Assembly: GCF_026151205.1 (NCBI RefSeq)
Contig: NC_087082.1
Coordinates: 6,331,908 to 6,395,907 of the forward strand
Length of the DNA stretch: 64,000 bases
Direction: 5' to 3'
From: Bolinopsis microptera
Taxonomy: Eukaryota > Ctenophora > Tentaculata > Lobata > Bolinopsidae
The notes under the pieces were generated by a model that worked only from the letters and a program-made list of their open reading frames with translations, was not told the DNA's origin and made no database searches. Shown here in pieces: positions 5,521 through 39,740 of the stretch. A program made the translations under genes and the position numbers. Position 1 is the first letter of the stretch, and each line of letters starts with the position of its first letter.

Positions 5521-6089
5521 TCAGACAATGATTATAATTCTACACGGAGCTACTACAGGTGTAGGAAGAACAAAAGGAACATTAGTAGGAGTAGGTTTCA
5601 CCCTGGCATTTGTCGCTCTGTGCTCCTGCTACGCTCTATACATATATTATAATTCTCAGTCTATTCTATATATTATACACCTGTGTTATGGTGGCTGTTT
5701 TGAGAGCTCCCATGTTTTCTCTACACCTGTGTTTATGGTGGCATGCTGTTTTGCTCCCTTGTTTTCTCTACACTTGTCTTTATGTCACGCTGTTTTGAGA
5801 GCTCCTCTGTTTTCTCTACACGTCTTGTCTTACATGCTAACTCATACCCCAAATTGTTGCCCTATACAGTGTATCATCACAGACGCTCGCATTTCACAGA
5901 GTTCTGTGAATCATTCCTAACACTTACGGTTGATATCTCATATCTTATTGTCCCCCAGATACCCCCTGAACATTCTCTTGTATACACAGAACCAGATTCT
6001 ATTATCAACCCCGATTTGTCCAATTTGGGAGAGAGTTTGGTATTGTTTGAGGAGTACCGCTCTGTAACATTGGAGCTCTGTACCGTTCC

Positions 6090-6563
6090 AGGTAACCAGG
6101 TAACCAGGTAACCAGGTAACCAGGTAACCAGGTAACCAGGTAACCAGGTAACCAGGTAACCAGGTAACCAGGTAACCAGGTAACCAGGTAACCAGGTAAC
6201 CAGGTAACCAGGTAACCAGGTAACCAGGTAACCAGGTAACCAGGTAACCAGGTAACCAGGTAACCAGGTAACCAGGTAACCAGGTAACCAGGTAACCAGG
6301 TAACCAGGTAACCAGGTAACCAGGTAACCAGGTAACCAGGTAACCAGGTAACCAGGTAACCAGGTAACCAGGTAACCAGGTAACCAGGTAACCAGGTAAT
6401 CAGGTCAGGTAGCCAGGTAACCAGTAACCAGGTAAACAGGTAACCAGGTAAACAGGTAACCAGGTAAACAGGTAAACAGGTAACCAGGTAACCAGGTAAC
6501 CAGGTAACCAGGTAACCAGGTAACCAGGTAACCAGGTAACCAGGTAGGTAACCAGGTAACCAG
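6090..6563 (+). repeat. Octamer array (aggtaacc)n
   Basis: About 58 copies of aggtaacc, nearly perfect except between 6395 and 6480, where aatcaggtcaggtagcc and ggtaaacagg variants occur. The 210-residue minus-strand open frame of WLPGYLVT-type repeats is a by-product of an octamer read in three phases and is not a gene. The array is the reverse complement of the one at 6819-7332. Confidence 0.95.
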
Positions 6564-6818
6564 TTTGGTATTGTTTGAGGAGCAGCAACAGTACCGCTCT
6601 GTAACATTGGAGTTCTGTACCGTTCCCTGCGGAGCATATTTGAGGACCCCTACATTAACGTGTTTTATATTTTATAGGGGGAAGTCTTTGAGTGGTACAA
6701 GGTGTTTTCGCACAACATGTCACAAATCTTTGAATTCCCGTCCACTTAGCCTTAAAACAAAGCCTCGGGAAAACTTTGGGGTTGATATTTTTGCTTTTGC
6801 CGAGAAAACTTCGCCACT

Positions 6819-7332
6819 GGTTACCTGATTACCTGGTTACCCGGTTACCTGGTTACCTGGTTACCCGGTTACCTGGTTACCTGGTTACCCGGTTACCTGG
6901 TTACCTGGTTACCTGGTTACCTGGTTACCTGGTTACCTGGTTACCTGGTTACCTGGTTACCTGGTTACCTGGTTACCTGGTTACCTGGTTACCTGGTTAC
7001 CTGGTTACCTGGTTACCTGGTTACCTGGTTACCTGGTTACCTGGTTACCTGGTTACCTGGTTACCTGGTTACCTGGTTACCTGGTTACCTGGTTACCTGG
7101 TTACCTGGTTACCTGGTTACCTGGTTACCTGGTTACCTGGTTACCTGGTTACCTGGTTACCTGGTTACCTGGTTACCTGGTTACCTGGTTACCTGGTTAC
7201 CTGGTTACCTGGTTACCTGGTCACCTGGTCACCTGGTCACCTGGTTACCCGGTTACCCGGTTACCCGGTTACCCGGTTACCCGGTTACCTGGTTACCTGG
7301 TTACCTGGTTACCTGGTTACCTGGTCACCTGT
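6819..7332 (-). repeat. Octamer array (ggttacct)n, inverted relative to the 6090 array
   Basis: About 64 copies of ggttacct. Variant copies (ggttaccc, ggtcacct) cluster at both ends while the centre is homogeneous. Together with 6090-6563 it makes two long inverted arms separated by about 255 bp. The open frame over it is repeat only. The stretch 7340-8040 has no recognisable gene. Confidence 0.95.
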
Positions 7333-8052
7333 TACACTGGTAATCCGATTGCACTCACACTGATTGTGCCCACGTACAGAAGCCATCAAGCCTTATACTT
7401 TAGTAGTAGTACTGGTATACTTATACTTATACTTTAGTCCGAAACATTGAAATAGTGTGCCCTCCGCTTGATCAGCGCTGTTCTCAACCGTTTTCATGAG
7501 ATCGAGTATCCAGTAGATCACTAGGGCAGTGTATAATTAGAGAGACAGCCTCACTTACTTACCGTGTCCGCGTGTTCGCGTGCAATTAGAAAATTATAAT
7601 GCGGCTCTCTTCACATTAAACAGTGAGCAGAACTGATGTTCTGCAGCTTTTGTAAACTGTACTGAGGGTAGATCACAGGACATTCTTTTGTCCTCATTCC
7701 GTCTACCGTGGTATTCTGTTACTGTTCGCACGGTCTTCCGTACTACTCTGTTACACTTTGTCCGGATACTCATTTTTATTATTTACTCGGTTACTTCTTT
7801 GTTACTTTTTGTCGGGCAACTTTTGCCGCGGACCACGGTACAATGTCTCCACATCTAAAAACCGGTTACACTAGTCAAAACATTATGTTCTGAAGAAGAA
7901 TGACGCGTCAGGCACTACATTGCACAGCGCGGCTCACTGTCCATGGCGACACTGAAGACAATGTGGTCCGTGACAAAGTGTGGATACCACTTGTGCGCCT
8001 GCTAATCTGCCTTTGTTTAACGTGCAGCTGGATTGTAGATCAGATTCACCGG

Positions 8053-9603: not shown

Positions 9604-9714
9604 CTGGTTACCTGGTTACCTGGTTACCTGGTTACCTGGTTACCTGGTTACCTGGTTACCTGGTTACCTGGTTACCTGGTTACCTGGTTACCTGGAACCT
9701 GGTTACCTGGTTAC
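9604..9714 (-). repeat. Third octamer array (ggttacct)n
   Basis: About 13 copies of ggttacct in the same orientation as 6819-7332, ending near ggttaccatggttaatg. Short degenerate copies of the same motif occur throughout the window, for example at 13320, 16545, 17830, 18930 and 22435. Confidence 0.93.
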
Positions 9715-9771
9715 CATGGTTAATGAAATGGTTAATTTACCTCGTACAAGAGGGTATTCATTAAGGATTTA

Positions 9772-12968: not shown

Positions 12969-13044
12969 ATGGCAAACAAACTCTCAGAAGAACAGATCGC
13001 CGAATTCAGGGAAGCATTCAGTCTGTTCGACAAAGATGGCGATG
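12969..13044 (+). CDS. CaM-A exon 1 (start codon, EF1 first half)
   Basis: Starts ATG GCA AAC AAA and encodes [19 protein letters not shown], then FDKDGDG. It differs from typical animal calmodulin at only about four of 26 positions. The exon ends in phase 1 inside the EF1 loop at gatg|gtacgg. The ATG is the only in-frame start that gives the canonical N-terminus. Confidence 0.93.
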
Positions 13045-16000
13045 GTACGGTTATTTCCCGCTATTCTATGAATACCATTACGTTTTAAATCGAAATAGCA
13101 AATAAAAATAAATGTCATTATGGTTATAACATCACTTTATAAAGTATGGAAACTAACATTGCAACGTCTTTTATACCTCCTGATCTGGATTAACGGTAAC
13201 TCTCTCAGGAACTATCACAACAACAGAGTTAGGAACAGTCATGAAGTCCCTTGGACAGAGCCCTTGTGAATCAGACTTGCAGGATATGATCAACGAGGTA
13301 ATTTAACCATTTCATTAACCATGGTAACCAGGTAACCAGGTAACCATGGTAGCCCGGTAAATTAACCATTTCATTTGGTGGTCGGGAATTTGCTTGTTAC
13401 CTGGTGAATTAGCTTCCAATTGGTTCTGTTGTGAATATTATCCAGGACTAACATTAAACCCAGGTTGACGCAGATGGTAATGGAACGATAGACTTCAAAG
13501 AGTTTTTGGAGATGATGACCAAACACATGAAAGAGGCTGACTGCGACCAAGAATTGCGGGAAGCCTTCAAGGTGGGTTTGACTGTTTGATCCGCTGGATA
13601 GTTGTAGCAGTTACTATGGTTACTATAGTTACTATAGTTACCATAGTAACCTAAGCAGTTAGAGTTGTGGGTGTCTTATCTTTAATCGTTTGTACAGATC
13701 CCATCTTTAATCGTATGTACAGATCCTCCAAATTCAGCAGATTTTATTAAAGCTATTAAGCAAGTTTGATTAAATATTGATATTATACCGTGTGTAGTGT
13801 TGAGTGGTGAATATATAATATATTTAATGCTTATATAATAATATATAAATGTCCTATGTAGTGCCACTTCCGCGTGATATTGTGTGTGAAATATTGGCTA
13901 ACAAATTCAAGTTGATGTTTCTGAGTATTCAAGCTATTGTGCGAGAGAGAAAATATGTTTGTTCCAGAAAATCAATGCGGGGTATTATTATATTATTATA
14001 GTGCTATAAAGGATAAATCGCAACACAATATTCGTGAATGTGATGTACACGGAGAAAAGAATGTGATAGAAACACAATCCTCGTAAAGAGCAGATCCTAC
14101 ATCTATAAATATTATAAACTTTTACTACACAGCTTGAAAGCACATGAAATATAATTATTCAAAGTATGAAAATTACAGCATTGATAATTATACAAAAATC
14201 AACAGCAACCACAATTAAAAATTAATTAAAGCTATAGCGTTTATAAATTCCCCTGATTTTGTGATTAATATTTAATTCTCCCGCTGTTACCTGTTGTACT
14301 ATATTACTTTAATGTAATATGTGTCGCTGAAACGTTATTAAACTGCTTGCATCCCTTGCTTGTGTGAATTAGCGTTTTTTGTATTTTTATCACAGCTTTT
14401 TACTTTTACAATGTCCTCTGCTTGTGTCCAGGACGACAACTTCACTACAAGTACAGTTACCATAGCAACACCTACAGCCTGCGTTGCCTTTTTTATAACA
14501 TTTTTTTGTAACAGCACCAATAACATCATGCTTGTGACAATGTGACGATCATGCAGTGGCTAACAGCTCACAGCAAGCATTTACTGAGACGCAGAAGTCA
14601 GCTTGTGTGAGCGAGAAAACACTTGATGTGGTTGTCGTGGCGTGTGTACAGCCAATCACGTGACAGCTTCAAATTCGAATGTAAGATTGTGGAATTTACA
14701 GCACACTCCCGCTAATAACTTGTGGATATTATATGGATATCATGGAACAGCCTTCAATGTGACCACACAAATAGTGGTTCCAGTGGTTTCAGAACCACCA
14801 CAAATGGTGGTTCCAGTAAGTCATGTCCCAGTTGACACAGTGTTCTCTCTCGTGCAGCAGATTGTAAAGCAGCTACATTCCTCCGCATACAATCCTCCAT
14901 GATATCAGTTACCATAGCAACAGTTACCCTCTATCAACACTCCCGTAGGTCTTCGACACCGACGGTAACGGCTTCATCAGCTCCGACGAACTGAAGCAAG
15001 TGATGAAGAACCTGGGAGAGAAGCTGACCGACGAGGAGATTAACGAGATGATAAGGGAAGCTGATGATGACGGCAACGGACAGGTCGATTTTGATGAGTT
15101 CGTTAAGATGATGCAATCGACAAAATGATGGAAATGTTGTGGTCGAGTAAGGGACCTAGGGAAGGTTACTATGGTAACTATAGTAACCATAGTAACTAGG
15201 GCAGGCTCATTTCTCGATCTACGCAGATGACATAATTCCTTATCTTCACACAGTCTAGGCACTCTAGGCACATTTATTAGTTTAATTTAACTTTTAATTT
15301 ATGTATAAAAAAGTGTTTATTACGATACTGTTCAAGAAGTGTAAACCGTTGGAGTTTTAAGCGCAGTTATTTACTTTTGGCGCCTGATTCAGTTGTACCT
15401 TTGAAATTTCCTGTGAAAGAATATTTATAAGTTCAAACGAAGGAATGTATATAATATGCCTGCCCGATCCATATCTCCAGGATTCGAGCAGGATTGTGAA
15501 CTAACTAAAGTATAAGTCTTTTGAAATCCTCAGTTATTATATTAAGATACCATGTGAAGTCCATTTTTTTCCTTATCATTTCAGAATGAAATTCTTATCG
15601 ATTAGTTGTTGTTTTCTTGGAGTTAAAATAAATGTGAAACAAACGTTGAAAAATTATCCAAAAGTTATCAAATGTTCAGCTAATAAACGAAGTCATACTA
15701 TAATTTTGTATGATCACCACACACGTGTTGAAATAAATATATTTCCCTATTTTGCATGATACTCGTCAATGTGCTACTTTCTTGATTCTTGTATAATTGC
15801 CACCAGAAAAACCTATGGTAAATCGTAGTCTTCACGGGGATCTTTGCCATCAAGTAACTTCTTTCTTTCGAAAAATTGAATGTGTGAAAAATTAAATACT
15901 TGCCTCATGACGAGGAAAATTTTCAATATTCTCGCAATTTTGCCATCGAAAAACATCGAATATTTTAGGTTGAAATATGTTTGAGTTTAAGTTTCAGCCA

Positions 16001-19000
16001 AATGAATACGAAAAACTCTAAAACTGGATGGCATCGATCCCCACTTTCCTTTCTGCTCCCGTTAATTCAACATATTCTAATTAGCTCCCCTCAATTAAAA
16101 AGGCAGTACTACCTTAGATCTACTGGTTAATATTTCGGATGACCTTCCAGTAAAATTTCCGAAAACAAGGACACTCAAATAGTACTAGTAGTAGTAGATT
16201 GCATTCCGATGCTGGCCTGAGTGTTTTGGAGCCTGTTAAACTTTTGTTAATACTTTAATAGGTATTTATAACACAACCACATGCATACAAAAATGTTTAA
16301 CGTGATACTGCTACATATTTGTTCAATTTTTCCATGCCATGCACTGTGAGCCTGAATAGCGAAAGCAAATGATAATGTTGACAGTATAACCGTCAGCATT
16401 TAGTCTTGAAATTGTAACAAATGGGGTATCCATAGTAACTGTAAGAAATGGGGTTAAAACCTATACCACATTGAAACTGTAAGAAATGGGGTTAAAACCT
16501 ATACCACATTGAAATATATGAGAAGCTAAATTCAGGATTGCCATGGTTACCTGGTTACCTGGTTACCTGGTTACCAGGGTTGCCACTGCAGCCTTCCTAA
16601 TTCTTGAAGCAGCAGTTTCACATTTGATTTGTACACTAATTAAACGTGTTTTGATTAAAATGTACCGAAGATGAAATGTAAGCTCAAAAAGAAATCAGAA
16701 AGCAGTCAGATCTCTCAATTGCGACCACAAAACGCGACCGGCCTTATTATTTAGGTGTTTGATAAGGACGGAAACGGAAAGATCAGCAAGGAAGAGCTGA
16801 AACTAGTGATGAAGAACCTGGGGGAGAACCTGACGGACGAGGAGATTAGTGAGATGATATTGGAAGCCGATGATAACGGCGATGGTGCCGTAGATTACGA
16901 GGAGTTTGTTAAGATGATGCAAACAAAATGATGCGGTTACTATGGTAACGGTTGTCACGCTAGTTTTAGTTTGCAAGATCAGTTTTCTCTTCCATGGGGT
17001 GGAAATTCTACTGGACGTTCTTCCTTAAGTTCATATTTAATGTTGAGGTTTACTATAAAATTACTTTACTTAACGTTATATATAATGGGGGTAGTTTCGA
17101 TCAGAGCCGTACTGGCTAAAGTGCAGCTGGATGTGTTGAACTTAAAATATGGAATTTTTATTTTTGGGGTAATTCTAGAATAAAATAAAACTAAATATGT
17201 TCATAAATTTGTGATTAAATTTTATAACTTCAATAACCATAATCCTGTGATGGACGAGCCGCTACCTTTAGATTATGTTTAATCTTATACGACAGAAGTG
17301 AAGGAAATTGGACCTTCATGAAATCGTGGCATTTTAACACAAGTACTTTTTCTTTAGATTTATAAACGAATAAACGGACTTAGGACTTAAAGATTAGCGA
17401 TTCTTTTGCGTAAAGGTGAACGTTTTGTTGACGGATTTTCTGATTTGATGAATTTTGTTCGACTAATATGCTCTGTCAATATTGACTTGTTTTTATCAAA
17501 ATTCGACTCGCATCAACAACAGGGACAAAAAAAATCGCGGCATGTGCGGGATCGCGATTTTTCCCTTTCTTTGCGACAAATTTTATGTTTCGTCTGTTTT
17601 GCTTGTCGCGGTATCGCGGTTTGTGGGCAAAATAATCGCGATTTTCTTTTGTCCCTGATCAACAATAAATAAGTATAAACGAAAGGAATCGATGTAGTCC
17701 GAGGAGCCCTAATCCTCCTCGCGTCCTAAGATGGCGTTTCTCTTGTCTCATATACGAGCCATTAATTGAATCATTTAAAAATGAGCTAAAATATATCGCC
17801 AGTCTAATAGGAAGCATTTGAATTCCGGTTACCATGGTTACCATTGGTTACCTTGGTCATCTGAATAAGCCCTCACTTTTGCTGCTGCTAAATGTTTGTT
17901 GATTTTGTTAGCATGTTTTGAGCTACGAGCGTGAATGAATGAATGAAAAAGAAAGCACTGTTGATAGTACTAATTAGCCTCAGCATTTAGCAGAATTTAA
18001 CGTGTAGGAGCATGCAGTGAAGCGAGATAAGATCTTACCACCATGATAGTGGACGAGTCATGAGCGTGTGTGAATGCAAAGTCCGAGCAGAAATCAGGAA
18101 TCAGTCAGATATCTCCCAGATCACAGAACGAGAAAATTAACAGAACCCTCCTAACACGCACGGTCTTCCTCTTAGGTGTTTGATAAGGACGGAAACGGAA
18201 GGATCAGCCAGCAGGAGCTGAAACTGGTTATGAAGAACCTGGGGGAGAACCTGACGGACGAGGAGATTAACGAGATGATAAGGGAAGCTGATGATGACGG
18301 TGACGGACACGTTGATTTTGATGAGTTTGTTAAGATGATGCAAACAAAATGAAGCGGTTGTCACGCTAGTTTTTGTTTGCAAGATCAGTATTCTCTTCCA
18401 TGGGGTGGAAACACTGCTGGACGTCCTACCTTTATATTTAATGTAGAGACCTCTTACGAGCATGCTTTACTTAATATCATAGCGAGTTCAACTTCAATCA
18501 GAGCCCCTTTGGTTAGAGTGCAGCTAAATATAGAATTTGTAACCATGGTTACCAGGCATATAGTATGGAATTTGTATAGGTTGAAGTTGAGATCTCATGT
18601 TGCTATGTTGTTAAAATATGAAACTTTATTTTTGGGGTAATCTAGGAAAAAATGTAGATAAATATGTTTCACCCAAAGTAGTGGTATTCATTAGTTTGAA
18701 ATTGAATGTTATATATTATCTTTGACCTTAATTCCGCGAAGTATGACTAGAGCCCACAAAGTTTAGATAATTGTTTCATTGTGCAATTATTGCACTACAG
18801 AAGTAAAGAATATTGAATCTATAACCTATAACGAAATCTCAGCACTAGAATCCTTCACAGCTAACATTTTTATGACAATAGACTTTTTTCTTCAAATTTA
18901 GAAACGCATATATAATATAGTATACCATGGTAACCATGGTTACCATGGTTACCACGCATATAGTATGGAATACTATATATATACATACTATATTAATATA

Positions 19001-22000
19001 GTATGGAGTTAGAAGCTTCTTTTATATAAGCTTGTAAGGTGAACGTTTTGTTGTCGGATTTCTGATTTAATGAATTATGTTCGAGTATTGTTCTGTAGCA
19101 ATAAGTTATACTAACATATTGTGCTCTGTCAATATTGTATAGAACATATTTTTAGTAAACGGAATTATGAATTGACTTGTTTTTATTCAAATTGGACTCA
19201 CTTAAATAAATGCATATTGCATAATATCCAATGGGTCAGTACAGTTTACCTACAATAGAAATTCAGTTAGGCAGCTTCTAATGAACCAACCCTACAACAC
19301 AACAATTGGAAGAATGTGACTATCCCGATATCAACCCTCGCGTTTGTGTGCTAAACAAACCCTTTACACTAGGGCTTCTCGCTTAAATAGCAAAACCTCG
19401 AGTTTGTGTGCTAAACAAACCCTTAATACTAGGGCTTCTCGCTTAAATAGCAAAACCTCGAGTTTGTGTGCTAAACAAACCCTTAATACTAGGGCTTCTC
19501 GCTTAAATAGCAAAACCTCGAGTTTGAGTGCTAAAGAAACCCTTAATACTAGGGCTTCTCGCTTAAATAGCAAAACCTCGAGTTTGTGTGCTAAACAAAC
19601 CCTTAATACTAGGGCTTCTCGCTTAAATAGCAAAACCTCGAGTTTGAGTGCTAAAGAAACCCTTAATACTAGGGCTTCTCGCTTAAATAGCAAAACCTCG
19701 AGTTTGTGTGCTAAACAAACCCTTAATACTAGGGCTTCTCGCTTAAATAGCAAAACCTCGAGTTTGTGTGCTAAACAAACCCTTAATACTAGGGCTTCTT
19801 GCTTAAATAGCAAAACACGCTCCTGAAAACCGTGTAGCTAAAACGTTTCGTAGCCTGTTTAACTTTTATCAACATGTATTTATCCATTTTGATAAAAGTT
19901 AAAATGTTTATAAACACAACTGCATACAACATACCAACATTTTTAACAAAATCAGATCTAGTCATCCAGGTTATAAACTAGTTGACTGTGAGATTAAGAA
20001 AGGGAAATATGTGAATATTATATGGATATCATTAAAGCACTGTTCACAGAATCTTTAGCATTTACCCTTCTTTCTTAAACTTTAAGAATAGAGGGCAAGA
20101 AGTTTTATCACTTTAAACTGTATGTATCGAAATCAAGAGGTAGAATTGTTGTCACTTTGAAGCAAATCAACAGGTATAATTTCTATCACTTTGAAGGCAA
20201 ATCAACAGGTATAATTGTTATCACTTTGAAGGCAAATCAACAGGTATAATTTCTATCACTTTGAAGGCAAATCAACAGGTATAATTTCTATCACTTTGAA
20301 GGCAAATCAACAGGTATAATTTCTATCGCTTTGAAGGCAAGGCAAATCAACAGGTATAATTTCTATCACTTTGAAGCAAATCAACAGGTATAATTTCTAA
20401 CGCTTTGAAGGCAAATCAACAGGTATAATTTCTATCGCTTTGAAGGCAAATCAACAGGTATAATTGTTATCACTTTGAAGGCAAATCAACAGGTACAATT
20501 TCTATCACTTTGAAGCAAATCAACAGGTATAATTTCTATCACTTTGAAGGCAAATCAACAGGTATGATTTCTATCACTTTGAAGCAAATCAACAGGTATA
20601 ATTTCTATCGCTTTGAAGGCAAATCAACAGGTATAATTTCTATCGCTTTGAAGGCAAATCAACAGGTATAATTTATATCACTTTGAAGGCCAATTAACAG
20701 GTACAATTTCTATCGCTTTGAAGGCAAATCAACAGGTACAATTTCTATCACTTTGAAGGCAAATCAACAGGTACAATTTTTATCCTTTGAAGGCAAATCG
20801 ACAGGTACAATTTCTATCGCTTTGAAGGCAAATCAACAGGTACAATTTCTATCGCTTTGAAGGCAAATCAACAGGTATAATTTCTATCACTTTGAAGCAA
20901 ATCAACAGGTATAATTTCTAACGCTTTGAAGGCAAATCAACAGGTATAATTTCTATCGCTTTGAAGGCAAATCAACAGGTATAATTGTTATCACTTTGAA
21001 GGCAAATCAACAGGTATAATTTCTATCACTTTGAAGGCAAATCAACAGGTATAATTTCTTTCACTTTGAAGGCAAATCAACAGGTATAATTTCTATCACT
21101 TTGAAGCAAATCAACAGGTATAATTTCTATCACTTTGAAGGCAAATCAACAGGTATGATTTCTATCACTTTGAAGCAAATCAACAGGTATAATTTCTATC
21201 GCTTTGAAGGCAAATCAACAGGTATAATTTCTATCGCTTTGAAGGCAAATCAACAGGTATAATTTATATCACTTTGAAGGCCAATTAACAGGTACAATTT
21301 CTATCGCTTTGAAGGCAAATCAACAGGTACAATTTCTATCACTTTGAAGGCAAATCAACAGGTACAATTTTTATCACTTTGAAGGCAAATCGACAGGTAC
21401 AATTTCTATCGCTTTGAAGGCAAATCAACAGGTACAATTTCTATCGCTTTGAAGGCAAATCAACAGGTATAATTTCTATCACTTTGAAGGCAAATCAACA
21501 GGTATAATTTCTATCGCTTTGAAGGCAAATCAACAGGTATAATTTCTATCACTTTGAAGGCAAATCAACAGGTACAATTTCTATCGCTTTGAAGGCAAAT
21601 CAACAGGTATAATTTCTATCACTTTGAAGGCAAATCAACAGGTATAATTTCTTTCACTTTGAAGGCAAATCAACAGGTATAATTTCTATCACTTTGAAGG
21701 CAAATCAACAGGTATAATTTATATCACTTTGAAGGCAAATCAACAGGTACAATTTCTATCACTTTGAAGGCAAATCAACAGGTACAATTTCTATCGCTTT
21801 GAAGGCAAATCAACAGGTATAATTTCTATCACTTTGAAGGCAAATCAACAGGTATAATTTCTTTCACTTTGAAGGCAAATCAACAGGTATAATTTCTATG
21901 ACTTTGAATTTATCATTATTAAAAGGTGCAGGTCAGCACGGTACTTGTGTATCTTTGTGTGTAAGTGTTCAGATTGAAAGCAACCGTTGCTTAGCAACGT

Positions 22001-25000
22001 GAAGCTGAAAGCAGCGTGATGTGATCTTCCAGTGTGATCTTTCTTTGATTATCACATGATAATTGTGACGTGTGTCTTGAATGCGAAGCCCGAATGCAGA
22101 AGCAGAAAGCACTCAGATCTGTCTCTACCAATATCTAAATCACAGAACGAGAAAATTAACAGAAGCTTACCCGCCCGGTCTCCTTCCTTAGGTGTTTGAC
22201 AAGGACGGCAGCGGCAAGATCAGCAAGCAAGAGCTGAAAGAAGTGATGAAGAACCTGGGGGAGATCTTGACGGACCAGGAGATAACAGAGATGATAAGGG
22301 AAGCTGACGATAACGGGGACGGTGAAGTTGATTTCGAGGAGTTCGTTAAGATGATGCAGACCACAAAATGAAGGGAATGGTTTGCAAGGCTGCAGTCCTG
22401 TCTGCTGTGGCTGGAAATATTGCTGGACGTCATAGTTACCATAGTTACCATAGTAACATTCACTTGTTTTAAATCACATATATAAATTATAAGGGTAACT
22501 TTGATCAGAGCCATTGGATTGAGTGCAACTAAATAAAGAATTTGTATAGTTTAACTTTAGAGTTGAAATCATGCTATTAAAAGGATTTTGTTTTTGGGTT
22601 TCATTCATGAATTTGAATTTGTATTTTGTATATCTTCAAATGATCTCGCAAAGACCAAAACCTTTAGAAGTTTAGATAATTGTTCATTTTGCATTACACA
22701 TCTACAAAAGTGGAGGAATTCGTATCTATTACCTCCATAAATTTTAAAATTATGAAATCATGGCTTTGACTCCTTCACAGCTAACAGTACGATTACAATA
22801 ATTATAAACGAATATAATAATATCATGTGGAATTAAGTGTTACCATTGTTACCATGGTCACGATTCTTTTATAGTTCTATATAAAGATAAACGTTTTGTT
22901 GACGGATTTTCTGATTTGATGACGAATTTTCTGATTTGATGAATTTTGTTTACCTTAACAAAAAGTTAAATCTAACATAATATGCTCTGTCAATATTGTA
23001 TAGCAAAACCAAAATGAATTATCTGAATTGACTTGTTTCAATTAAAATTTTACCCATTTAAATAATTTATGATATTCCAGGGGTCAGACGTCAGTGTTTA
23101 AAACTTTAAAACAACAAAACATTACCCAAAATAGATTGTAGGTTGGGCACTGGGCAATTTTAGTTTATGTTAATTAGTATATTGACGAAAATTCTTACTC
23201 TATCATATCTCCGAGATAAGTTTCAAAGTTTTACCCCTCATCCGAACGCTCTGTCGGGAGTTATATAGCTATAATAGTACATCAGAGTTTACCGTGTATT
23301 ATTAATACACGGTACGGGTAAGCTCTGATGTACGAATAAAGTGCCCTAAATTGAGTGAGATAGGTCGGGAGTACTGCACTGTAGACAGTTTTTGTAGAAA
23401 AATATTGCAGTTATATGGCTGCTGCTATCTGAGAACATTCTAGAAGGGTCTTGGGAGCTGTATATCCTCCGGCCCTCCGGTTACTACTTTACTTGGGAGC
23501 TGTATATCCTCTATCTGGCTCTCCAGTTACTACTTTACTTGGGAGCTGTATATCCTCTGGCTCTCCAGTTACCATCGTTGTTAAATACGTCAAAAAATCG
23601 GCTCAAAATACGGCGCATTCAATGTTCGAGAGAAATGCGTAAGAATACGTCAAGTTTCCATTCAAGTTTCCATTCAATAAGCCCCAAAAAATTGAATTGA
23701 GACCCAGTTAAATTTTGTCCGGAATACGTTTAAAATTTGTCCGAAATACACGCGCAGATCAAATTAACGCCGCGCATTTTGAATTCCTTGAATTTTCTGA
23801 GCAAGTAGGCCATAATATATATAAGGCATAACAGGGTCGCGGTCACAAATCAGCGTGGACGGTCCGCGGTCTAAAGTAGCATTAGCGAGTAGCGACCATA
23901 GTCGCTACTTCATGATACTTCTGATCAGTGAGAGTGGTGGCTAGAGTTTGCTTTTCCGGAACTGAGACTCCTCTCCCCATAGTGGAGAGGGCTAGGACCA
24001 TATTAAGGAAGTATGGGCTCTCGACTTTAGAGAAAGGAATAGCTTTTAGTCAGAAATAGTTTCTTTTAGACTATAATTATAAATAATTAGAATTACTATT
24101 AGGTGTAGCTATCCGTGCATCAAAAGCAAAAAGTGAAAAGGCAGTTTATTTAAACACGTGAATCGACCATTCAACAGCTAGCTGACATACTGCCAGACTA
24201 ACTAAAACTTCCTTTTCATTGATCAGGATAGCTGCATCTAAAACCATTATTTAAAGTGTCATATCAACTGGCCCAAAATCTGTGTAACTGGGGATAAAAC
24301 ATAAAACCATTATGTCAGCACGTTGTGTTAATCTTCACCAAAACGTTGTCGTCAGGTATTTGACCAGAATGGGGACGGGTTCATTTCAGCAGAGGAGCTG
24401 AAAACAGTTATGAGGAACCTAGGAGAGACACTTACTGATGACGAAATAGATCAGGTTTGTGAAATATCACGTGTTGTCGTGTTCATATTGAATTTGATAA
24501 GACAAACTAACATTAAACGTAAATTGAAGCGAAAATGCGCATGATGCAGCTGTTATCAAACTTGTGTAATAACTAATATAAAATGGAGGTTAGACTTAGA
24601 AGATGTGACAAACAATTTCACGGGTCTGGTCTCATCTTGAGTGGACCAAATATCCATAAAACAAACATGTTCCATGTCATTTCGTTGGCCATGACTCCGA
24701 AGATGAATATATAGCGATAACCCTACTCAAGATCATAAACAATATCAGGGTAAGGTTTATGTCTATTAGACATAACCCTTAACCTGATCATAACCCAGAA
24801 CCCTAAGCACATATTTCCAATCCACTACCGTTATAGCCATGACAACCATAGCCCTAAACAATTGAATTCAGCAGCTCATCACGTGATCTAAACAGGTTTT
24901 TGCTCATAACTCCATAGTGAAGCGTATTTACCTTTTGATATGGCAAAATAATATTTTGTGTACCCTCGCGAGGCCGGGGCCGTTCATAAATATTTAAAAA

Positions 25001-28000
25001 ATATAATAACGGGCAGCATATTAGTAAATTACATTACCGTTATAATGATATTATGATAATGTTTAGGGCCACAACCTCGGTCGCTCATAGCCTAGCCGTA
25101 GCATGCTGCAAGTGCAATTCTTCATTCTGCGCCCCAATCTCCCGCTCAACCATAAACCACCGATTAATAATTCAAAAGCTTTTCAAACATCATCATTAAT
25201 AATAATAATTATGAACAGTCTTGCGCTAATTCCATTTCGAAAAGATATAAACCGTTGTTGAAGTGTGCGACGTGATATGGATTGGGCAGTATCCATGATC
25301 CAAGAATTCTGATCAGCGGAATTCCGAATTAGGCCTAAACATAATTATTATAACTCAACATAGCCCTAATCGCAACCGTTTTTGAAAACGATATTAACTT
25401 AACCGCTATCTTACTAGCTATATACAGGGTGAGTTGAAAATGCAATGGAAAATAGTGTGTGGAATGTAAAAATCGATAATTTTTTATGAAAGAGCAAATT
25501 TTGAAAGGTGAATTGCTATCAGTTCATAAACTTTACAAATTTCATTCTTGCCTCTCATTAAATTCTAACTTATAATTTGGTTGATTTTTGGCAGTTTTCC
25601 AAAAAATCGTAAATTCGTCCTAATAAGGTTCTCAAATCGCGTGCCCTGAAAATCGAGTCTAAAAATCTATCTTCTCGTACATTTTTTGAGAAAAACTCAT
25701 CAAAAAACGAGGTCCAAGATTTGCAAAATCGGAAAAACAATTTTGAAGGCGTATCTCAAAATTCTGTCCGGATCCGGTTCATCTCTTCTAAATGATCCCT
25801 AGAAGTAGAACATATCCTGAACGTTTCAGGGTGATTGCTCAAAAAATGTAGGACATAGGAGAAAATAGATTTTTAGATTCGATTGTCAGGGCACGCGATC
25901 AAAAATCACCAGGCCACACGCGCTGACCTTTGACCGGCAATAATCAAAAGCATCTGATAAATATTACTCCCCTCTATCAGAAACAACTAAAAAGTAGATT
26001 TTGAGAAAATTTGAAAATTTCCATGAAGACCCCGGCCCCCTTAATACAGTCAAGTCGGCAAATAGACAATTGTCTTAATCGTTGTCGTTATCAACATGTC
26101 CTAGCTAATAAAGGACGATGGGTTGAGCAAATTATTAATTATTAAGTATTTTTATTGTATTATTATAATATTTATATATTTTCATTACCTAAATATGCAA
26201 AAATTAAGTGGAAATTTCATTTTTCAAAAAAATTAGAGCCATTTACATTCCACACACTATTTTCAACTCACCCTGTACCTATTATAAAGCGAGACAATAG
26301 TTATGGATGGATGGATGGATCCGTACCATTTTACTGACACCACGGCATCAACTTTAACGTGAATTTCCGCAAAAACCGTATAGTAAAAGACATACAACTT
26401 AAACTTTTTCGACTGGGTCAAATGCTTTAATGGCCTCCAAATCAGCATGAAAAAAAAATTAGCCAAGAAATAGGAGGTTTAGAGCCCAAAATTTGGACTC
26501 CGGCCCCAAGTGGTGTCAAAAACGCGAATTAAATAGGTAATAATTATTTTAGTCTCTTATTTTAGAGTTATACGGGTTCCTGCTAGTCGGCAATAATAAG
26601 TATAACCGTTTTGAAAACGATAACCGGTTTTGAAATAATATAACGATTATTGTTCCTCAAAACGATCATCGTTTTTCAAAACGATAAAATTGGACCCACC
26701 ATAATTGTCTCACTGTTAAATTATTGTTTCCTGCAAAACTAAAATCTAGGAAACGTTCGCGTTTTACTGATGGATGGATCGATTGAATTAATATGCACTA
26801 ATATGCACTAATATACATTAATATGCACTAATATGCACTAATATACACTAATATGCACTAATATACACTAATATGCACTAATATACACTAATATGCACTA
26901 ATATACACTATTATCACACTTTCGAGCCAAATTTGGCAGGAAAGCAGAATTTATATTCCATGCCCCGATGGGGAGCACTGGCTCTCACCCTGGGGCATGA
27001 AATATCAATCAGTTGCTCAGAGAGTGCTCCATAGAAACTAGGAGCCCGCTCTCAGCAACTGATCTACTACTGTAAGGTACTGATCAAAATACAGATTTAA
27101 ATCAATAACCTGAAGTAGTCTACGACCATAAATGCAATGATCAGATAAACTTTCCAGAATAAGGAAAAATGTATATTTATACTCGGTTTTTAAAACATTT
27201 CCTTGCGTTTGAGATGCGTTAACTTACTTACTTGTAGTTACTTGATTAGGTCTCCTCAATCATTCGAGTGGCCTGCACCAATGAACTCCCGTTTGTGACG
27301 TATCATCTCCCTCCAAAGTTTGCGGTCACTAGCCATCTCGCTCGCTCCTTCTAGATCTATGTCAGTGTTTCCTGTAAACGCTGCAGCATCTTCCAGCAAA
27401 CATTTCCTCCAGTTCTTTCTTGGACGGCCCCTAGATCTTCTCCCATGGGCAGGGGTCCAGTTAAGCAGGTACTTAGGAAGCCTAGTGTCTGGCATTCTGG
27501 TGACATGGCCAAACCAACGCAGGCGGTTTGCTCCTATGTACGTCTCTACTGGATTTATCTTTGCACGCTCCAGCACTTCAGTGTTTCTAACCCGATCGAG
27601 CCATCTTATCCTAAGTATTCTCCTCAAGCAACGCTGATGGAACACCTCAAAGCGATGTAGCTGCTTTTTGGTTGTGTTCCAAACCTCACTACCATATAAC
27701 AATATTGTCAAAACCGCTGCCTTATAAATCCTGATCTTTGTATAAGACTGGATGTTGCGGTTTTTCCATATATTACTCAGTTGATTGAAGGCTCCGGAAG
27801 CTTTCTGAATCCTAGCTGACAACTCACGGTCGATAGTACCGTCGCTGGAAATAATTGTACCTAAGTACGTAAAATCACTAACTTGCTGCACTGGCGTGTC
27901 TTCAACAGTGATGTTCACTGTGGCTTCTTTCGTGTATGGCCGTTGAGAGGTTGCTTTACCAATGACCATAGCCTCAGTCTTTTTACCATTGATTCTAAGA

Positions 28001-31000
28001 CCTCCCTGGGCACCATACATACACAAAAGGTCAGTTGTTTCTTGAAGACCTTCCTCGCTGTTATCCAGTACAGCCATGTCATCTGCATAATCTGTATCTA
28101 ACACAGTGATATCATCAACAAGCGGACTGATAGATCTTTGAAGAACCGCTCCGTGGGACACCACTTTGTTGCTTTCTGTTCTCTCAGCAGCCACATTGAG
28201 GCAGACATTAAAAAGTGGGGGACCCTGAATGTCTCCTTGGCCACTGCCTGAACTTACTTCAAACCATTCTGATAGTTCACCATTGTGTCTAACAGCACTA
28301 ACAGTTCCATTAAAGAATGCCTGTATTATTCGAATGTATCTACATGGCAGGCCATAATGACTGAATGCTTTCCAAATATAATTCCTGTCGATGCGGAATC
28401 AAAAGCTGCCTTGAAGTCCACAAAATTTACATACAGGGGGAGATTATATTCAATGCAGTTATGTATAATAGTGCGGAGTGAATAAATCTGATCAATGCAT
28501 GATCTGTTCTTTCTAAACCCACACTGATTGTCTCGTAGCAAACTTTCTAAACCGTCACTCATGCGTTGTAATATGATGATTTGATACAGTTTAGATGCTG
28601 TAGATCTTAGAGTGATCCCCCTATTATTGGAGCAATGAGAGGTATCACCCTTCTTTGGTACAATTATCACGATGCCTTTCAACCAGTCGTCAGGCACTGT
28701 TTCTGAATTCCAAACTTTAGAGAACAATTTCTCCATCCTATCCACAAGACCACTTGCCCCATACTTTAACTGCTCATTAGAGATTTCGTCGATCCCAGCA
28801 CTTTTGTGGTTCTTCAATTTTTTGAGACAGTTTAAAATCTCAAGTCTAGTGGGGGGACCATCACCATCACCAAGATAAGGAAAGCATGGAACCACTTCAA
28901 GATGGTCCAGGTCAGACAGATCCGCATTCGTGGGAGGAGGGTTTAATAGCTCCGAAAAATGTTCTCCCCATCTCTCTCTCTGAGCAGAAGGATCAGCAAT
29001 CAACTTCCCGGATTTGTCTCTTACAGCAGTTGATTTTCGATTCTTCTTACCGGACAGTGTTTTTATCCGTTGCCAGACTTCCCTTTGCCGGCCATGGACA
29101 GCAGCTGTTTCCAGATCTGCTGCAACTCTAAGAGCCCAATTCTCGTCGTCTTTCCTGCAGCTCTTTTTGACAAGTTTGTTGGCCCGAGAATACTCGCTCC
29201 TATTGTTGTTGTCACTAGGCGCCATCTGTTTAATCTTACTGCGTTCTGCAATAAGGCTTTTTGTCTCCTGAGACAAATGCTGCTGCTTTCTGCGCCGGGG
29301 GCGCTCACCCAGTACCTCCATAGACACTTCTTTAATGGTATCCTTAACTAATGTCCATTCTCCATCAAGATTCTCCTCCATTGGTAGGCAGCTAAAACGA
29401 TTTTGAAGAGCAATGCAGTACTCTTCAACCTTGGACTGATCTCTAAGATTCTCAATTGCTGGAGATATCCTACGAGAAGCGTTCATTTTTTGAACTGCCA
29501 TAAGTTTGACTCTAAATTGACCCCGAACCAAATAATGATCGGAGCCAATGTCTGCACCCCTGCATGATCTTACGTCAAGTAGAGAGTGACTCCACTTGGT
29601 AGAAATACAGACATGGTCAATCTGATTTACTGTGCGGCCATCTGGAGACTTCCAACTTCCTTTATGAATATCACGATGCTGGAAAAGCGTCCCACCGATT
29701 GTCAGCTGATGTAATGCACAGAAATCTAATAGTCGAAGGCCGTTGTCATTTGATGAAACGTGAAGGGAATGCTTACCAATCACACCGGACCAAGCTGAAT
29801 TATCTTGGCCAATGCGAGCATTTAGATCTCCAAGTAAAAACTTCACGTCATGAGCTGGTAGTTCATCAAATGCCCCAGATAGCTGCTGATAAAAGTCATC
29901 GTTTACCCCGAATCCGTTAAGCGAAATACATTTTTTTTTGTACAACCTTTTCAAGCTGTTGCTTTTTTTATTGCACTTCATAGTTCAAAGCTTAATTAGG
30001 CTTCGGATGATGAAACAAAGTAAAAACTCCCTGGCTTGTGCGACTAACCCCATATCGCTACTATTCAAATATAGTGCCAAGTCGGCCAGTCACTAAGCAG
30101 CTAATTAATACAGATTCGGTTGATGATACAAACTCCCTGGCTCGTACGACTAGCTAGTATTCAAGTATAGTGCCTGGCACAGTTCAGAGTGACTTAAGGT
30201 TACTGAAAAGGACATCAAAGTTTACAAGCAGACTTGAAAGTTGCACAAAGTTTTGGTACTTGTCAGCGATACAATCAATCAGGCTAATTAATTTCCTTAA
30301 TCGCTTACTTGAAATTAAAAAGGAAGTGTCAGAACAAACTACAGTCACCCTCACAAAAATAGTAAACACTAAAAGTAAACGATGTTTGATTCATTGATCG
30401 AACGAATAAAACGCACAAAACAAGAATCTTGGTGTCAAGTAGTTATATTTGAAAGAAAATTATTGTCAAGAATTGATAAAGGGCTGGTCAGCAAATCATA
30501 ACGTAATAAATTGTGATACATTACGAATATTAATTTAGCCACATTTCAGCCATTTCAGACCTCACTTTTAACCCCCTCTGATCCCTTCTGTGAGCCATAT
30601 TCCATATAGAAATTGTGCAGAAATTATACTAGGCTTTTCCAAATCGGCTTCCCCTAGAATGGCTTGCGAAATTCGTGGCTGATATACAAAGAGACTTATA
30701 AATTCTGTACAATAAAGAGCGAAAATTCTATCCCTGCACCAGTTTTAACTGAAGTTTAGTTAGTGCAATAAAAAATTCTATAAAATATATTATGCATATA
30801 AAGATATCAAGGGACGAATGGCGTAACTTAATCAGCTAATCCGGTTATAAATTGGTCTGGTCGCTGGGGCAAATTTAGGTCCGATGATTGATATGCTGCC
30901 ATTCTTTAGACCAATTCAATATTGCTAACAGTACGGGTGAACTGCCTGGCAATGACCAGGGTGGTTATAATAGGCTGGTGAAGTGCGTTCTAAAATGGTA

Positions 31001-32530
31001 TTACCAGGCCGATTATCGGGCTATTAAGTCAAGAGTTACTTTCATAAACAATACTAAAGAGTACGGATGTCTGCTCTTGATATTAAAACAATCTAGAGTT
31101 GTATTGAACTTGAAGAGATACATTATATTACGGCTGTTCTGATAATTTCTAGCGAAGCAAATAATGGCAAGATGAATATAAGCTGACTATACTCGATAAA
31201 ATTCAATAAAAGTCAATGATTACAATTAGTTCCAATGATAAATCATTCTGAAATAAGAGACAATCAAGACGGACGATAATATTGTTGATATATGAATTAG
31301 GGCGTGTAGTACAAGTACAACATGAACAGTTGATAATTTGGACTTATAAATAGACAATCATGGCACCACAGCCCTATTCAAATATAACAACCAGGAAATA
31401 CTATCACCTTATTGCAGATACAGATTAGTATTACATGATAAGGACTAGGATGTATAATCTACACTAAAACAGATGTTCTATACATTATACATCTTCAGTT
31501 TTAATGACTCAAAATATATCTAATAGAAATAAAGTATAAGAATCACGTCACACCGATTGATATGCAGGTTATCATTTATGATTAAAAGACGCGCTCGTTG
31601 CGGAATATTCTAGACTGCAATAAGTACAAGACCCATAGGCGAGAAATACATTAATATTCCATGCACTACGTATCAGTAAAAAGCAAATTGGGCGCGGCGG
31701 TTAGCATTCACTGTGTCATAAATGTGAGCACAAAAGATTCTAATTTCACGTATTGTATCTTTAATATCTGAAATACTAACCCATCGAGAGCTATATATAG
31801 TTTGAACATTATAAACATAAATAAGTTCGACATGTCTAGTTTGCTTTGGTGAGATTTATAACTAACGTTTGATCAAATTCTGCTTTCCCGGCCAAATTTG
31901 GCTCCAAAGAAAGTGTGATAAAACATTAATCACATGCCTTCTCATGCGATATCAACATTTTCAAAACTCGGCAAGCCTCGTAATAATTGAAAATGTCGAT
32001 ATAACCCTCGGCAAGCCTCGGGAAATATCGAAACTTTTGCTAACTCGGCAAGCCTCGTGGGCGAAAGTTTTGATATCGCATGAGAAGGCATGTGATAAAT
32101 GTATAATATGCACTAATATGCACAAATATACACTAATATGCACTATTATGCACTAATATGCACTAATATGCACTAATATGCACTAATATGCACTAATATG
32201 CACTAATATGCACTAATATGCACTAATATGCACTAATATGCACTAATATGCACTAATATGCACTAATATACACTAATATGCACTAATATGCACTAATATG
32301 CACTAATATGCATGTTAAATATACCCCAATAAGTGACCTACTCAAGCGTGGTTATCCGCACATGGCAATGATGGTAAAATAGTAAAATCCAAGTTAGGCA
32401 TCCAAAATGGAGTTCCATGGACCGGGATAATATGACTTGAAAACAATTTCAGATGATAAAAGAAGCAGATTCAAATGGTGACGGCTCAGTGGACTACGAG
32501 GAGTTCTGTAAGATGATGACACCCAAATAA
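12969..32530 (+). CDS. CaM-A: calmodulin gene with five alternative terminal C-lobe exons
   Basis: Calmodulin is a cytosolic EF-hand calcium sensor that binds target helices with two lobes. Constant exons at 12969-13044, 13209-13297 and 13464-13571 encode 91 residues: EF1 loop DKDGDGTITTTE, EF2 loop [12 protein letters not shown] and the central linker. Exon 3 ends in phase 0 at a gtgggt donor. Five downstream acceptors in phase 0 (14949, 16755, 18176, 22192, 24356) each open a C-lobe that starts V-F-D. Four of these are single exons with their own stops; the fifth continues in 32453-32530. Predicted isoforms are 149-150 residues, against 149 for animal calmodulin including Met. All ten C-lobe EF loops keep acidic residues at positions 1 and 12 and Gly at 6. 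Exon lengths of the 1-2-3-4e-5e path (76, 89, 108, 99 nt) match CaM-B. That the array is alternatively spliced is inference. The alternative is that 4a-4d are headless duplicates, but all have intact frames and acceptors. Confidence 0.85.
13209..13297 (+). CDS. CaM-A exon 2 (EF1 second half to EF2 helix)
   Basis: The acceptor is ctctcag|ga and the donor is gag|gtaatt. It encodes the rest of the EF1 loop (GTITTTE), the helix [12 protein letters not shown] and LQDMINE. The reading is in phase with exon 1 (GAT G|GA) and ends in phase 0. The proteins encoded by exons 1 and 2 fit calmodulin residue for residue without a gap. Confidence 0.93.
13464..13571 (+). CDS. CaM-A exon 3 (EF2 loop and central linker)
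   Basis: The acceptor is cccag|gttgac and the donor is aag|gtgggt. It encodes [20 protein letters not shown], then [16 protein letters not shown], which is the EF2 loop plus the flexible central helix. It ends in phase 0, exactly where each alternative terminal exon begins with Val-Phe-Asp. The 1.4-kb intron after it (13572-14948) contains no recognised gene; the small open frames in it lack calmodulin features. Confidence 0.93.
14949..15128 (+). CDS. CaM-A alternative terminal exon 4a
   Basis: The acceptor is cccgtag|gtc, followed by 59 codons and TGA. The EF3 loop is [12 protein letters not shown] and the EF4 loop is [12 protein letters not shown]. All lobe methionines expected for target binding are present ([19 protein letters not shown]). 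This is the only alternative with Lys in the LGEKLTD segment, the calmodulin position 115 that is trimethylated in many species. Codons mostly end in G or C, unlike exons 1-3. A candidate aataaa lies at 15627. Confidence 0.88.
15627..15632 (+). terminator. Candidate polyadenylation signal for exon 4a
   Basis: An aataaa hexamer about 500 bp after the 4a stop codon. It is the first canonical hexamer I see downstream. AT-rich DNA gives such hexamers by chance, so this is tentative. Confidence 0.3.
16755..16931 (+). CDS. CaM-A alternative terminal exon 4b
   Basis: The acceptor is tatttag|gtg, followed by 58 codons and TGA. The EF3 loop is [12 protein letters not shown] and the EF4 loop is [12 protein letters not shown]. 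It has Asn where 4a has Lys115 (LGENLTD). It alone has Leu for the near-invariant Arg in MIREAD (EMILEAD), which may alter target contacts. The 3' UTR homologous to 4c follows immediately. Confidence 0.88.
17179..17184 (+). terminator. Candidate polyadenylation signal for exon 4b
   Basis: An aataaa (gaataaaataaaact) about 250 bp after the 4b stop. The homologous place after 4c (near 18650) reads ggaaaaaatg and lacks the hexamer; after 4d a taaataaag is present at 22531. Confidence 0.45.
18088..19150 (+). repeat. Duplicated cassette around exon 4c
   Basis: Homologous to the 4b and 4d cassettes. Upstream it shares cacagaacgagaaaattaac with 4d and agaaatcag with 4b. The 3' UTR has gttgtcacgctagtttt and ttccatggggtggaaa as in 4b. 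Further on are gtgaacgttttgttg and gctctgtcaatattg. A degenerate ggttaccatggttacc cluster lies at about 18925-18955. Confidence 0.75.
18176..18352 (+). CDS. CaM-A alternative terminal exon 4c
   Basis: The acceptor is cctcttag|gtg, followed by 58 codons and TGA. The EF3 loop is [12 protein letters not shown] and the EF4 loop is [19 protein letters not shown] has Asn at the position of Lys115. It is nearly identical to 4b in the helix between EF3 and EF4 and to 4a in [12 protein letters not shown], so it is the most intermediate member of the set. No obvious aataaa follows within 300 bp. Confidence 0.88.
19337..19816. repeat. 60-bp tandem repeat, eight copies
   Basis: Eight exact-length 60-bp units sit in the intron between alternatives 4c and 4d. 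Since 60 is a multiple of three, both strands stay open (160 codons plus, 149 minus), with a 20-residue period such as [19 protein letters not shown]. Two copies (fourth and sixth) carry a linked variant (SAKE), which hints at gene conversion or a two-unit duplication. No start context or homology supports a real protein. Confidence 0.9.
20095..21905 (+). repeat. 35-bp satellite with higher-order structure
   Basis: About 52 copies of a 33-35 bp unit such as ggcaaatcaacaggtataat followed by ttctatcactttgaa. Variants include gaagcaaat (2 bp shorter), gctttgaa and ggtacaat. The same series of rare variants (ttctaacgc, then ggtatgattt) appears twice, about 520-590 bp apart, so large blocks were duplicated. 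It lies between alternative exons 4c and 4d. Confidence 0.93.
22192..22371 (+). CDS. CaM-A alternative terminal exon 4d
   Basis: The acceptor is ttccttag|gtg, with the best pyrimidine tract of the set, followed by 59 codons and TGA. The EF3 loop is [12 protein letters not shown] and the EF4 loop is [12 protein letters not shown]. The inter-EF segment reads [13 protein letters not shown], with Ile at position 115 and Gln for Glu in DEE. The C-terminus is MMQTTK. Confidence 0.88.
22532..22537 (+). terminator. Candidate polyadenylation signal for exon 4d
   Basis: An aataaa within aactaaataaagaat, about 160 bp after the 4d stop. Position and spacing are plausible for a short 3' UTR. Confidence 0.45.
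23277..23333. repeat. Hairpin-forming inverted repeat
   Basis: An imperfect inverted repeat: gtacatcagag and ttaccgtgtatta on the left pair with taatacacggta, gtaa and ctctgatgtac on the right. It lies in the intron between 4d and 4e. It resembles the tip of a foldback element; no gene is implied. Confidence 0.7.
23451..23577 (+). repeat. Short direct repeat, three copies
   Basis: Three copies of ttgggagctgtatatcctc followed by a gcyctccggttactacttta-like segment, 42-46 bp apart. The 63-codon open frame through it is repeat-derived. Confidence 0.8.
24356..24454 (+). CDS. CaM-A alternative exon 4e (EF3, non-terminal)
   Basis: The acceptor is cgtcag|gta and the donor is cag|gtttgt. Its 33 codons include the EF3 loop [12 protein letters not shown] and [12 protein letters not shown], with Thr at position 115. 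Unlike 4a-4d it has no stop; it ends in phase 0 and needs the exon at 32453 for EF4. Its length (99 nt) equals CaM-B exon 4, so it keeps the ancestral split arrangement. Confidence 0.85.
25425..26275. mobile_element. Tc1/mariner-like MITE
   Basis: Terminal inverted repeats start cagggtgagttgaaaa at 25425 and end ttttcaactcaccctg at 26275, each flanked by TA (25423-25424 and 26276-26277), the usual target duplication of Tc1/mariner elements. The matching subterminal tagtgtgtggaatgtaaa follows on both sides. There is no transposase frame. An internal inverted repeat (about 25636-25670 with 25867-25899, core gtgccctga/tcagggcac) suggests a nested or foldback core. It lies in the intron between 4e and 5e. 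Confidence 0.82.
26791..26910 (+). repeat. 10-bp array (atatgcacta)n, left copy
   Basis: Twelve units of atatgcacta with some atatacacta variants, abutting the left terminal repeat of the 26914-31921 element. The same array recurs at 32107-32311. Confidence 0.93.
27218..29945 (-). mobile_element. 5'-truncated RTE-like non-LTR retrotransposon
   Basis: The minus strand encodes an APE-type endonuclease followed by a reverse transcriptase. The 3' end on the minus strand runs into aagtaagtaagt, a short microsatellite tail as in RTE-type elements. The N-terminal part of the endonuclease is missing, so the copy is 5'-truncated. It sits in the 8-kb intron between CaM-A exons 4e and 5e, antisense to the gene. 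Confidence 0.82.
27256..29981 (-). pseudogene. Broken LINE polyprotein: endonuclease plus reverse transcriptase
   Basis: The upstream frame (28326-29981) shows endonuclease motifs GDLNAR, NQIDH and GSDHY, then RT motifs including VPKKGD and FVDFKAAFD. The downstream frame (27256-28194) holds the RT active site YADD, then a C-terminal region ending RPRKNW. The two frames belong to one protein separated by a single frameshift near 28400, just after AAFDSA. Sequence between 28194 and 28400 continues in the downstream frame (SGSGQGD). A copy with one frameshift and few other lesions is fairly young but not mobile by itself. The first 15 or so residues of the upstream frame are host or junction sequence. 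Confidence 0.85.
31929..32096. mobile_element. Small foldback element with three ctcggcaagcctcg motifs
   Basis: Ends atcacatgccttctcatgcg and cgcatgagaaggcatgtgat are perfect inverted repeats, extending through atatcaa/ttgatat. Three copies of ctcggcaagcctcg lie between them. It is 168 bp long and has no coding capacity. It lies directly beside the right end of the TIR element. Confidence 0.8.
32107..32311 (+). repeat. 10-bp array (atatgcacta)n, right copy
   Basis: About twenty units of atatgcacta, more homogeneous than the left copy at 26791-26910 and in the same orientation. Confidence 0.95.
32453..32530 (+). CDS. CaM-A exon 5e (EF4 of the fifth alternative)
   Basis: The acceptor is caatttcag|atg, in phase 0. 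It encodes 25 codons, [20 protein letters not shown] and then MMTPK, followed by TAA. The EF4 loop is [12 protein letters not shown]. It joins exon 4e across an intron of about 8.0 kb (24455-32452). The stop codon overlaps an aataaa (32526-32531). It parallels CaM-B exon 5 (42549-42623) in start, phase and content. Confidence 0.83.
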   Translation: MIKEADSNGDGSVDYEEFCKMMTPK

Positions 32531-39664: not shown

Positions 39665-39740
39665 ATGTCGAAATCTCTGTCAGATACTCAACTAGCTGAT
39701 TTTAAAGAAACGTTTACCCTGTTCGACAAAAACGGAGATG
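39665..39740 (+). CDS. CaM-B exon 1
   Basis: Starts ATG TCG AAA TCT, giving MSKSLSDTQLADFKETFTLF then DKNGDG. It ends in phase 1 at gatg|gtaaga. Intron 1 contains two copies of a segment like the 32-bp satellite (ttatatggtaatgtaacc) at about 39770-39830. Confidence 0.88.

Follow-up and report, generated by a model that had tools for sequence, protein, structure and literature searches.

The window analysed here is a 64,000-nucleotide stretch of the genome of the ctenophore Bolinopsis microptera (NCBI RefSeq assembly GCF_026151205.1; contig NC_087082.1, or C11, positions 6331908-6395907); genome searches covered 264.65 Mb in 232 contigs. It carries a calmodulin-like gene, gene A, which, judging from its exon anatomy, probably encodes five sensors of four EF-hands each by cis-splicing of one set of N-lobe exons to five alternative terminal C-lobes. 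The exons, in window coordinates, are as follows.

12969-32530, plus strand: gene A, calmodulin-like; three N-lobe exons, then five C-lobes
12969-13044, plus strand: exon 1, start codon through the first half of the EF1 loop; donor GTACGG, phase 1
13209-13297, plus strand: exon 2, remaining EF1 into the beginning of EF2; donor GTAATT, phase 0
13464-13571, plus strand: exon 3, EF2 plus the central linker as far as AFK; donor GTGGGT, phase 0
14949-15128, plus strand: exon 4a, fused EF3+EF4, terminal; acceptor ...CCCGTAG; 59 codons and stop
16755-16931, plus strand: exon 4b, fused EF3+EF4, terminal; 58 codons and stop
18176-18352, plus strand: exon 4c, fused EF3+EF4, terminal; 58 codons and stop
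22192-22371, plus strand: exon 4d, fused EF3+EF4, terminal; 59 codons and stop
24356-24454, plus strand: exon 4e, carrying EF3 of the fifth C-lobe; donor GTTTGT, phase 0
32453-32530, plus strand: exon 5, carrying EF4 of the fifth C-lobe, MIKEAD...TPK and stop

Spliced in frame, exons 1-3 give a 91-residue N-lobe with central linker (MANKLSEEQ...ELREAFK), bounded by GT donors and AG acceptors, and the exon 3 donor at 13571 is the candidate donor common to all five C-lobes. The acceptors at 14949, 16755, 18176, 22192 and 24356 all end in AG and all lie in phase 0 (5/5 in each case); the spacing from one to the next is unequal, ranging from 1.4 to 4.0 kb. Exons 4a-4d are intronless EF3+EF4 frames of the form VFD...TK, each closed by its own stop; the frame is kept in all four, and their lengths of 58-59 codons vary by exactly one codon. 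Gene A has one upstream exon set and several homologous in-phase terminal exons with their own stops. An initial annotation of this DNA had described three N-lobe exons followed by five phase-0 acceptors, and its coordinates proved exact. It had further described five intact EF3+EF4 frames with a stop, which is accurate for 4a-4d but not for the fifth C-lobe, where 4e holds EF3 only and exon 5 brings EF4 and the stop.

In 4a-4d the triplet preceding the initial Val codon is TAG, so that the acceptor itself doubles as an in-frame stop, and the earliest in-frame ATG in all five C-lobes is codon 19, past the EF3 loop. For these two reasons the whole C-lobe of 4a-4d can be read only via a splice from an upstream exon. 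Nine N-lobe probes, drawn from the exons of genes A, B and E (E <= 10), detected no further N-lobe exon in the interval 13572-24355, in a search that could miss very short or strongly changed exons. All hits with E < 0.1 overlapped C-lobe exons, the best remaining hit had E 0.13, and a human calmodulin probe likewise found no N-lobe exon in this interval. These genomic probes bear on the possibility, raised in the initial annotation, that 4b-4d belong to independent genes with N-lobe exons of their own; none were detected. A tandem array of complete calmodulin-like genes was also considered and is not supported, no N-lobe exons belonging to the individual C-lobes having been detected at 13572-24355. 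A genome query with a 58-residue C-lobe, in which 150 of 182 candidates were scored, found 47 places; going by the list of places alone, C11:6346856-6354269 is the sole run of several C-lobe exons lacking N-lobe exons.

The coding sequence of the fused exons has been under constraint. In the six pairs among 4a-4d, synonymous divergence (dS) is 0.41-1.18, nonsynonymous divergence (dN) 0.08-0.16, and dN/dS 0.11-0.20. Neutral simulations, with the number of nucleotide changes matched to each pair, gave mean amino-acid differences of 15-26, as against the 9-14 of 58 observed; for five pairs none of 2000 neutral runs fell as low as the observed value, and for 4b-4c 7 of 2000 did. Intact frames alone prove little, because 33-52% of the neutral runs remain stop-free, and the argument is instead one of amino-acid conservation. 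Codons 1-18, which would stay untranslated without a join to an upstream coding exon, can be considered separately: in the three pairs that include 4a, only 0, 0 and 13 of 3000 neutral runs were as low.

These observations bear on the main rival explanation, in which 4b-4d, and perhaps 4a, are separate small units within intron 3, either trans-spliced to a spliced leader or headed by unrecognised short first exons, and encode C-lobe-only or differently headed proteins. Ctenophores trans-splice leaders widely: a report on Hormiphora (PMC8527503) places spliced leaders on at least 56% of Iso-Seq reads and describes nested intronic genes as common, and a lone acceptor without its own donor would fit such units. 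The Hormiphora leader, at up to 3 mismatches, matched the Bolinopsis genome 203 times forward and 173 times in reverse, close to the 144 and 177 of a backwards control. However, with a leader attached directly to 4b-4d, translation would begin at codon 19 and the EF3 loop would be lost, which suits badly the constraint on codons 1-18 in the three 4a pairs, a constraint not clear in the others; the acceptor phases all match exon 3; and no short coding exon was recognised upstream, such exons being hard to see. We consider separate units unlikely.

The terminal exons 4b-4d can be traced to duplication within the gene. Exons 4c and 4d share about 110 nucleotides of sequence upstream of the exon, 4b and 4c share about 170-200 nucleotides past the stop, and an element 482-684 nucleotides past the stop recurs behind 4b, 4c and 4d. 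A search of the genome with this element found it in three places only.

17411-17481, plus strand: downstream element after 4b, covering 39 of 182 bases
19036-19209, plus strand: downstream element after 4c
22884-23065, plus strand: downstream element after 4d

The element may be what is left of the duplicated unit, or it may be conserved in its own right. Between the exon and the element, the 4b, 4c and 4d units align only patchily when an alignment is forced, and 4a resembles the other copies across the exon only. The flanks common to 4b-4d contain no N-lobe and no start codon, and therefore it was the terminal exon with its flanks that was duplicated: 4b-4d are tandem copies of one terminal exon. 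The intron between 4e and exon 5 is placed as in the neighbouring gene B (DQ/MIKEAD and TK/MIKEAD, phase 0). A C-lobe tree of 12 chosen rows, which leaves aside several other calmodulin-like loci of this genome, puts 4a-4d in one group with support 0.90; it does not resolve whether the fused exons came from the 4e/5 type by intron loss or from the type seen in gene E. Ctenophore genomes can be highly heterozygous, which would favour an assembly artefact, such as haplotypes laid out in tandem; heterozygosity is also mentioned in PMC8527503. Between the copies, 31-59% of synonymous sites differ, and so do the introns, which is too much divergence for alleles; the acceptor spacings differ as well, and an artefact is scarcely credible.

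Several observations do weigh against five alternative C-lobes in use. Codons 1-18 are without clear constraint in 4b-4c (680 of 3000 neutral runs as low), 4b-4d (298 of 3000) and 4c-4d (55 of 3000). The constraint on the fused exons could be partly older than the last duplications, and there may have been gene conversion among the copies. The fifth C-lobe is saturated at synonymous sites in comparison with each of 4a-4d, and because this holds in all four comparisons its constraint is argued from protein identity only. Exons 4e and 5 also look weak, with a GTTTGT donor and an 8-kb intron carrying a long interspersed nuclear element (LINE), as given here.

27256-29984, minus strand: LINE-like element, reverse-transcriptase frames; two overlapping frames with RVT_1 split across both, inside the 8-kb 4e/5 intron

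The 3′-end signals are uneven. AATAAA or ATTAAA occurs within 250 nucleotides of the stop for 4b (AATAAA, +248), 4d (AATAAA, +161) and exon 5 (ATTAAA, +128), while 4a and 4c have distant or variant signals only: the first AATAAA is at +499 for 4a, and for 4c none was found within 850 nucleotides (AATATA at +175, first AATAAA at +853). The hexamer AATAAA is no rarity in this region, occurring 21 times in the 20 kb between 13 and 33 kb, so that these signals do not demonstrate 3′ ends. No docking/selector pairing elements were found in gene A: comparison of the flanks or downstream elements with the rest of the gene gave matches of 9-15 nucleotides at E 0.06-5, the best a self-pairing palindrome, and all were rejected as chance. 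The uneven signals, the plain tandem duplication and the possibly older or converted constraint would suit a reading in which one or two C-lobes are in use and the remainder are duplication relics pending decay. The four fused exons have nevertheless kept both frame and acceptor, with low dN/dS, over synonymous divergences of 0.41-1.18, and we hold the relic explanation to be decidedly improbable.

The best reading from the genome thus remains the choice of one of five C-lobes proposed in the initial annotation, given the phases, the in-frame stops, the failure to detect an extra N-lobe exon and the constraint. In the mechanism that we infer, one promoter and one N-lobe would serve five alternative last exons, the exon 3 donor joining in cis to 4a, 4b, 4c or 4d, or to 4e and then exon 5. 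Each terminal choice would bring a stop and a 3′ end of its own, giving a sensor of 149-150 residues. The choice itself might arise from competition among acceptors and from polyadenylation sites after each terminal exon, adjusted by tissue factors.

All five predicted isoforms are 149-150 residues long, without extensions, and in each Pfam EF-hand_1 (PF00036) matches four stretches. In the EF3 and EF4 loops of the five C-lobes, position 12 is E, and positions 1, 3 and 5 are each D, N or S. When the Protein Data Bank was searched with the 4c isoform, the best 60 of 626 matches were all calmodulins or calmodulin fusions, aligned near full length. Identity to human calmodulin is 69/91 in the N-lobe and 38-41/58 in the C-lobes, or 72-74% overall. 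The same genome contains near-canonical calmodulin exons at C11:10.968-10.977 Mb, which are 84-100% identical to human calmodulin per piece (tblastn, run-on intron residues included; the start and the last exon lie outside the pieces read). The first intron of this canonical gene is placed as in gene A, after DKDGDG, and its later introns lie elsewhere. Gene A lacks the near-identity to other animal calmodulins seen in these pieces, and because a separate near-canonical calmodulin exists and gene A reaches only 72-74%, it is to be called calmodulin-like rather than, as in the initial annotation, a calmodulin gene.

The five C-lobes vary at 22 of 57 aligned positions, 12 of these within the two calcium loops. 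Thirty-one of the 57 positions are identical to human calmodulin, hydrophobic and Met residues among them, and F92, L105, M109, L112, M124, V136, F141, M144 and M145 are invariant in all five; we take the invariant hydrophobic and Met residues to be those that hold targets. An aromatic residue occupies position 99 in 4a and 4e, a basic one in 4b-4d, and the net charges of the C-lobes are near-equal (-8 to -10). Since the hydrophobic target-binding residues are invariant, the sequence does not favour the earlier proposal that the C-lobes differ in target anchoring. The choice of C-lobe would be expected to have its main effect on calcium affinity or kinetics and on surface properties, and less on core target recognition.

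Two further EF-hand genes follow gene A. Window position 64001 corresponds to position 1 of the adjoining stretch, L036, on which features beyond 64000 are given.

39665-42623, plus strand: gene B, calmodulin-like, five exons, a single C-lobe, divided where 4e/5 is
56015-56161, 60901-61041 and L036:4140-4286: gene F, three EF1 exons; GTGAG donors, phase 0, at a shared protein position
L036:5138-5251: gene F, EF2 exon, one found
L036:5952-6134: gene F, fused EF3+EF4 terminal exon, one found

At 41361-42568, gene B contains a 50-bp minisatellite that repeats the 3′ splice site of the last intron and the first 18 nucleotides of the last exon, with 23 exact copies of AG followed by ATGATAAAGGAAGCAGAC. 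All six of the upstream copies translated read MIKEADLVPQLTLTYFR and then stop, so that use of an upstream acceptor copy would truncate EF4. The EF1 exons of gene F, given here with provisional 5′ ends, are 38-53% identical, with proportions of synonymous (pS) and nonsynonymous (pN) differences of 0.62-0.73 and 0.28-0.38. They are possibly alternative EF1 modules, in a mirror image of the gene A design. We suggest tentatively, with the balance somewhat against it, that this is a modular calcium-sensor locus in which gene A varies the C-lobe and gene F varies EF1, half-sensor repertoires being generated by exon choice, not by gene number. The EF2 acceptor of gene F, with the first 24 nucleotides of the exon, is present seven times, mostly 51 bp apart, at L036:4771-5136 (68771-69136 on the window scale); this is the second acceptor-spanning minisatellite within 30 kb, the first being that of gene B.

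The LINE-like frames of the 4e/5 intron are flanked by a 10-bp repeat, TAATATGCAC, at 26789-26914 and 32104-32312. A second LINE-like element, at 45642-50246 on the minus strand, has long open frames that by the look of their translation encode an endonuclease and a reverse transcriptase. Long 8-bp arrays of the CCAGGTAA/CTGGTTAC type, in both orientations, occupy 6088-6563, 6817-7341 and 9604-9722, and related GTAACC motifs are dispersed in the introns and 3′ flanks of gene A. Searches of the 64-kb window with Rfam at gathering thresholds and with a transfer RNA scan found nothing.

Elsewhere in the genome, a search with aequorin gave 55 places, of which many are single-frame matches arranged in tandem. 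A photoprotein frame of 206 residues (L043:1417-2037) matches berovin at E 1.2e-121 and mnemiopsin 1 at E 2.4e-121, as against E 2.9e-20 for the best obelin, and so marks the genome as that of a ctenophore. Large tandem arrays of intronless photoprotein-like frames lie at C5:17012730-17026401, C13:11082451-11094340, C1:21999412-22006929 and C3:3415490-3427363; their period is about 0.94-1.03 kb, and the scores are often equal, the copies being perhaps near-identical.

Among related genes, gene E (about C11:16.058 Mb, L023) comes close to gene A in structure. Its second and third introns are likewise in phase 0, after HE and AFE, and it has a fused EF3+EF4 terminal exon beginning VFD (AFE/VFD junction, phase 0). 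Unlike gene A, its first intron follows FDK in phase 0, and one C-lobe was found. Like the calmodulin of animal CALM genes, gene A encodes four EF-hands in 149-150 residues and conserves the Met and Phe residues of the C-lobe; it differs in its 72-74% identity to human calmodulin and in having five C-lobes per N-lobe. In calmodulin, the two lobes are as a rule inherited as parts of a single protein. Abalone also has several sensor versions in one animal, but according to PMC6171432 each of its four calmodulins, with 94-98% similarity to the human protein, has a complete gene; the authors noted that complementary DNA did not exclude alternative splicing and then analysed the gene structures. 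In the literature on calmodulin splicing and gene structure, at the level of titles and the beginnings of abstracts and with most subscription papers outside this scope, we found no calmodulin or calmodulin-like gene with alternative lobes, in keeping with the initial annotation, which knew of no described calmodulin locus of this design.

If gene A is spliced as proposed, one N-lobe with five C-lobes would be a clean natural set for measuring the share of the C-lobe in the calcium response, and calcium signalling would have been diversified, via the choice of terminal exons, in an animal lineage that branched early and whose nervous system has a history of its own. Dscam, muscle myosin heavy chain and calcitonin/CGRP are known examples of alternative terminal exons or of mutually exclusive exon arrays. 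Gene A resembles these in having a constant exon set followed by alternative exons in one phase; it differs in that the swapped module, as predicted from the genome, is half of a free calcium sensor. Terminal-exon choice and the calmodulin-like family are each known, and it is their combination at the level of the lobe that would be new.

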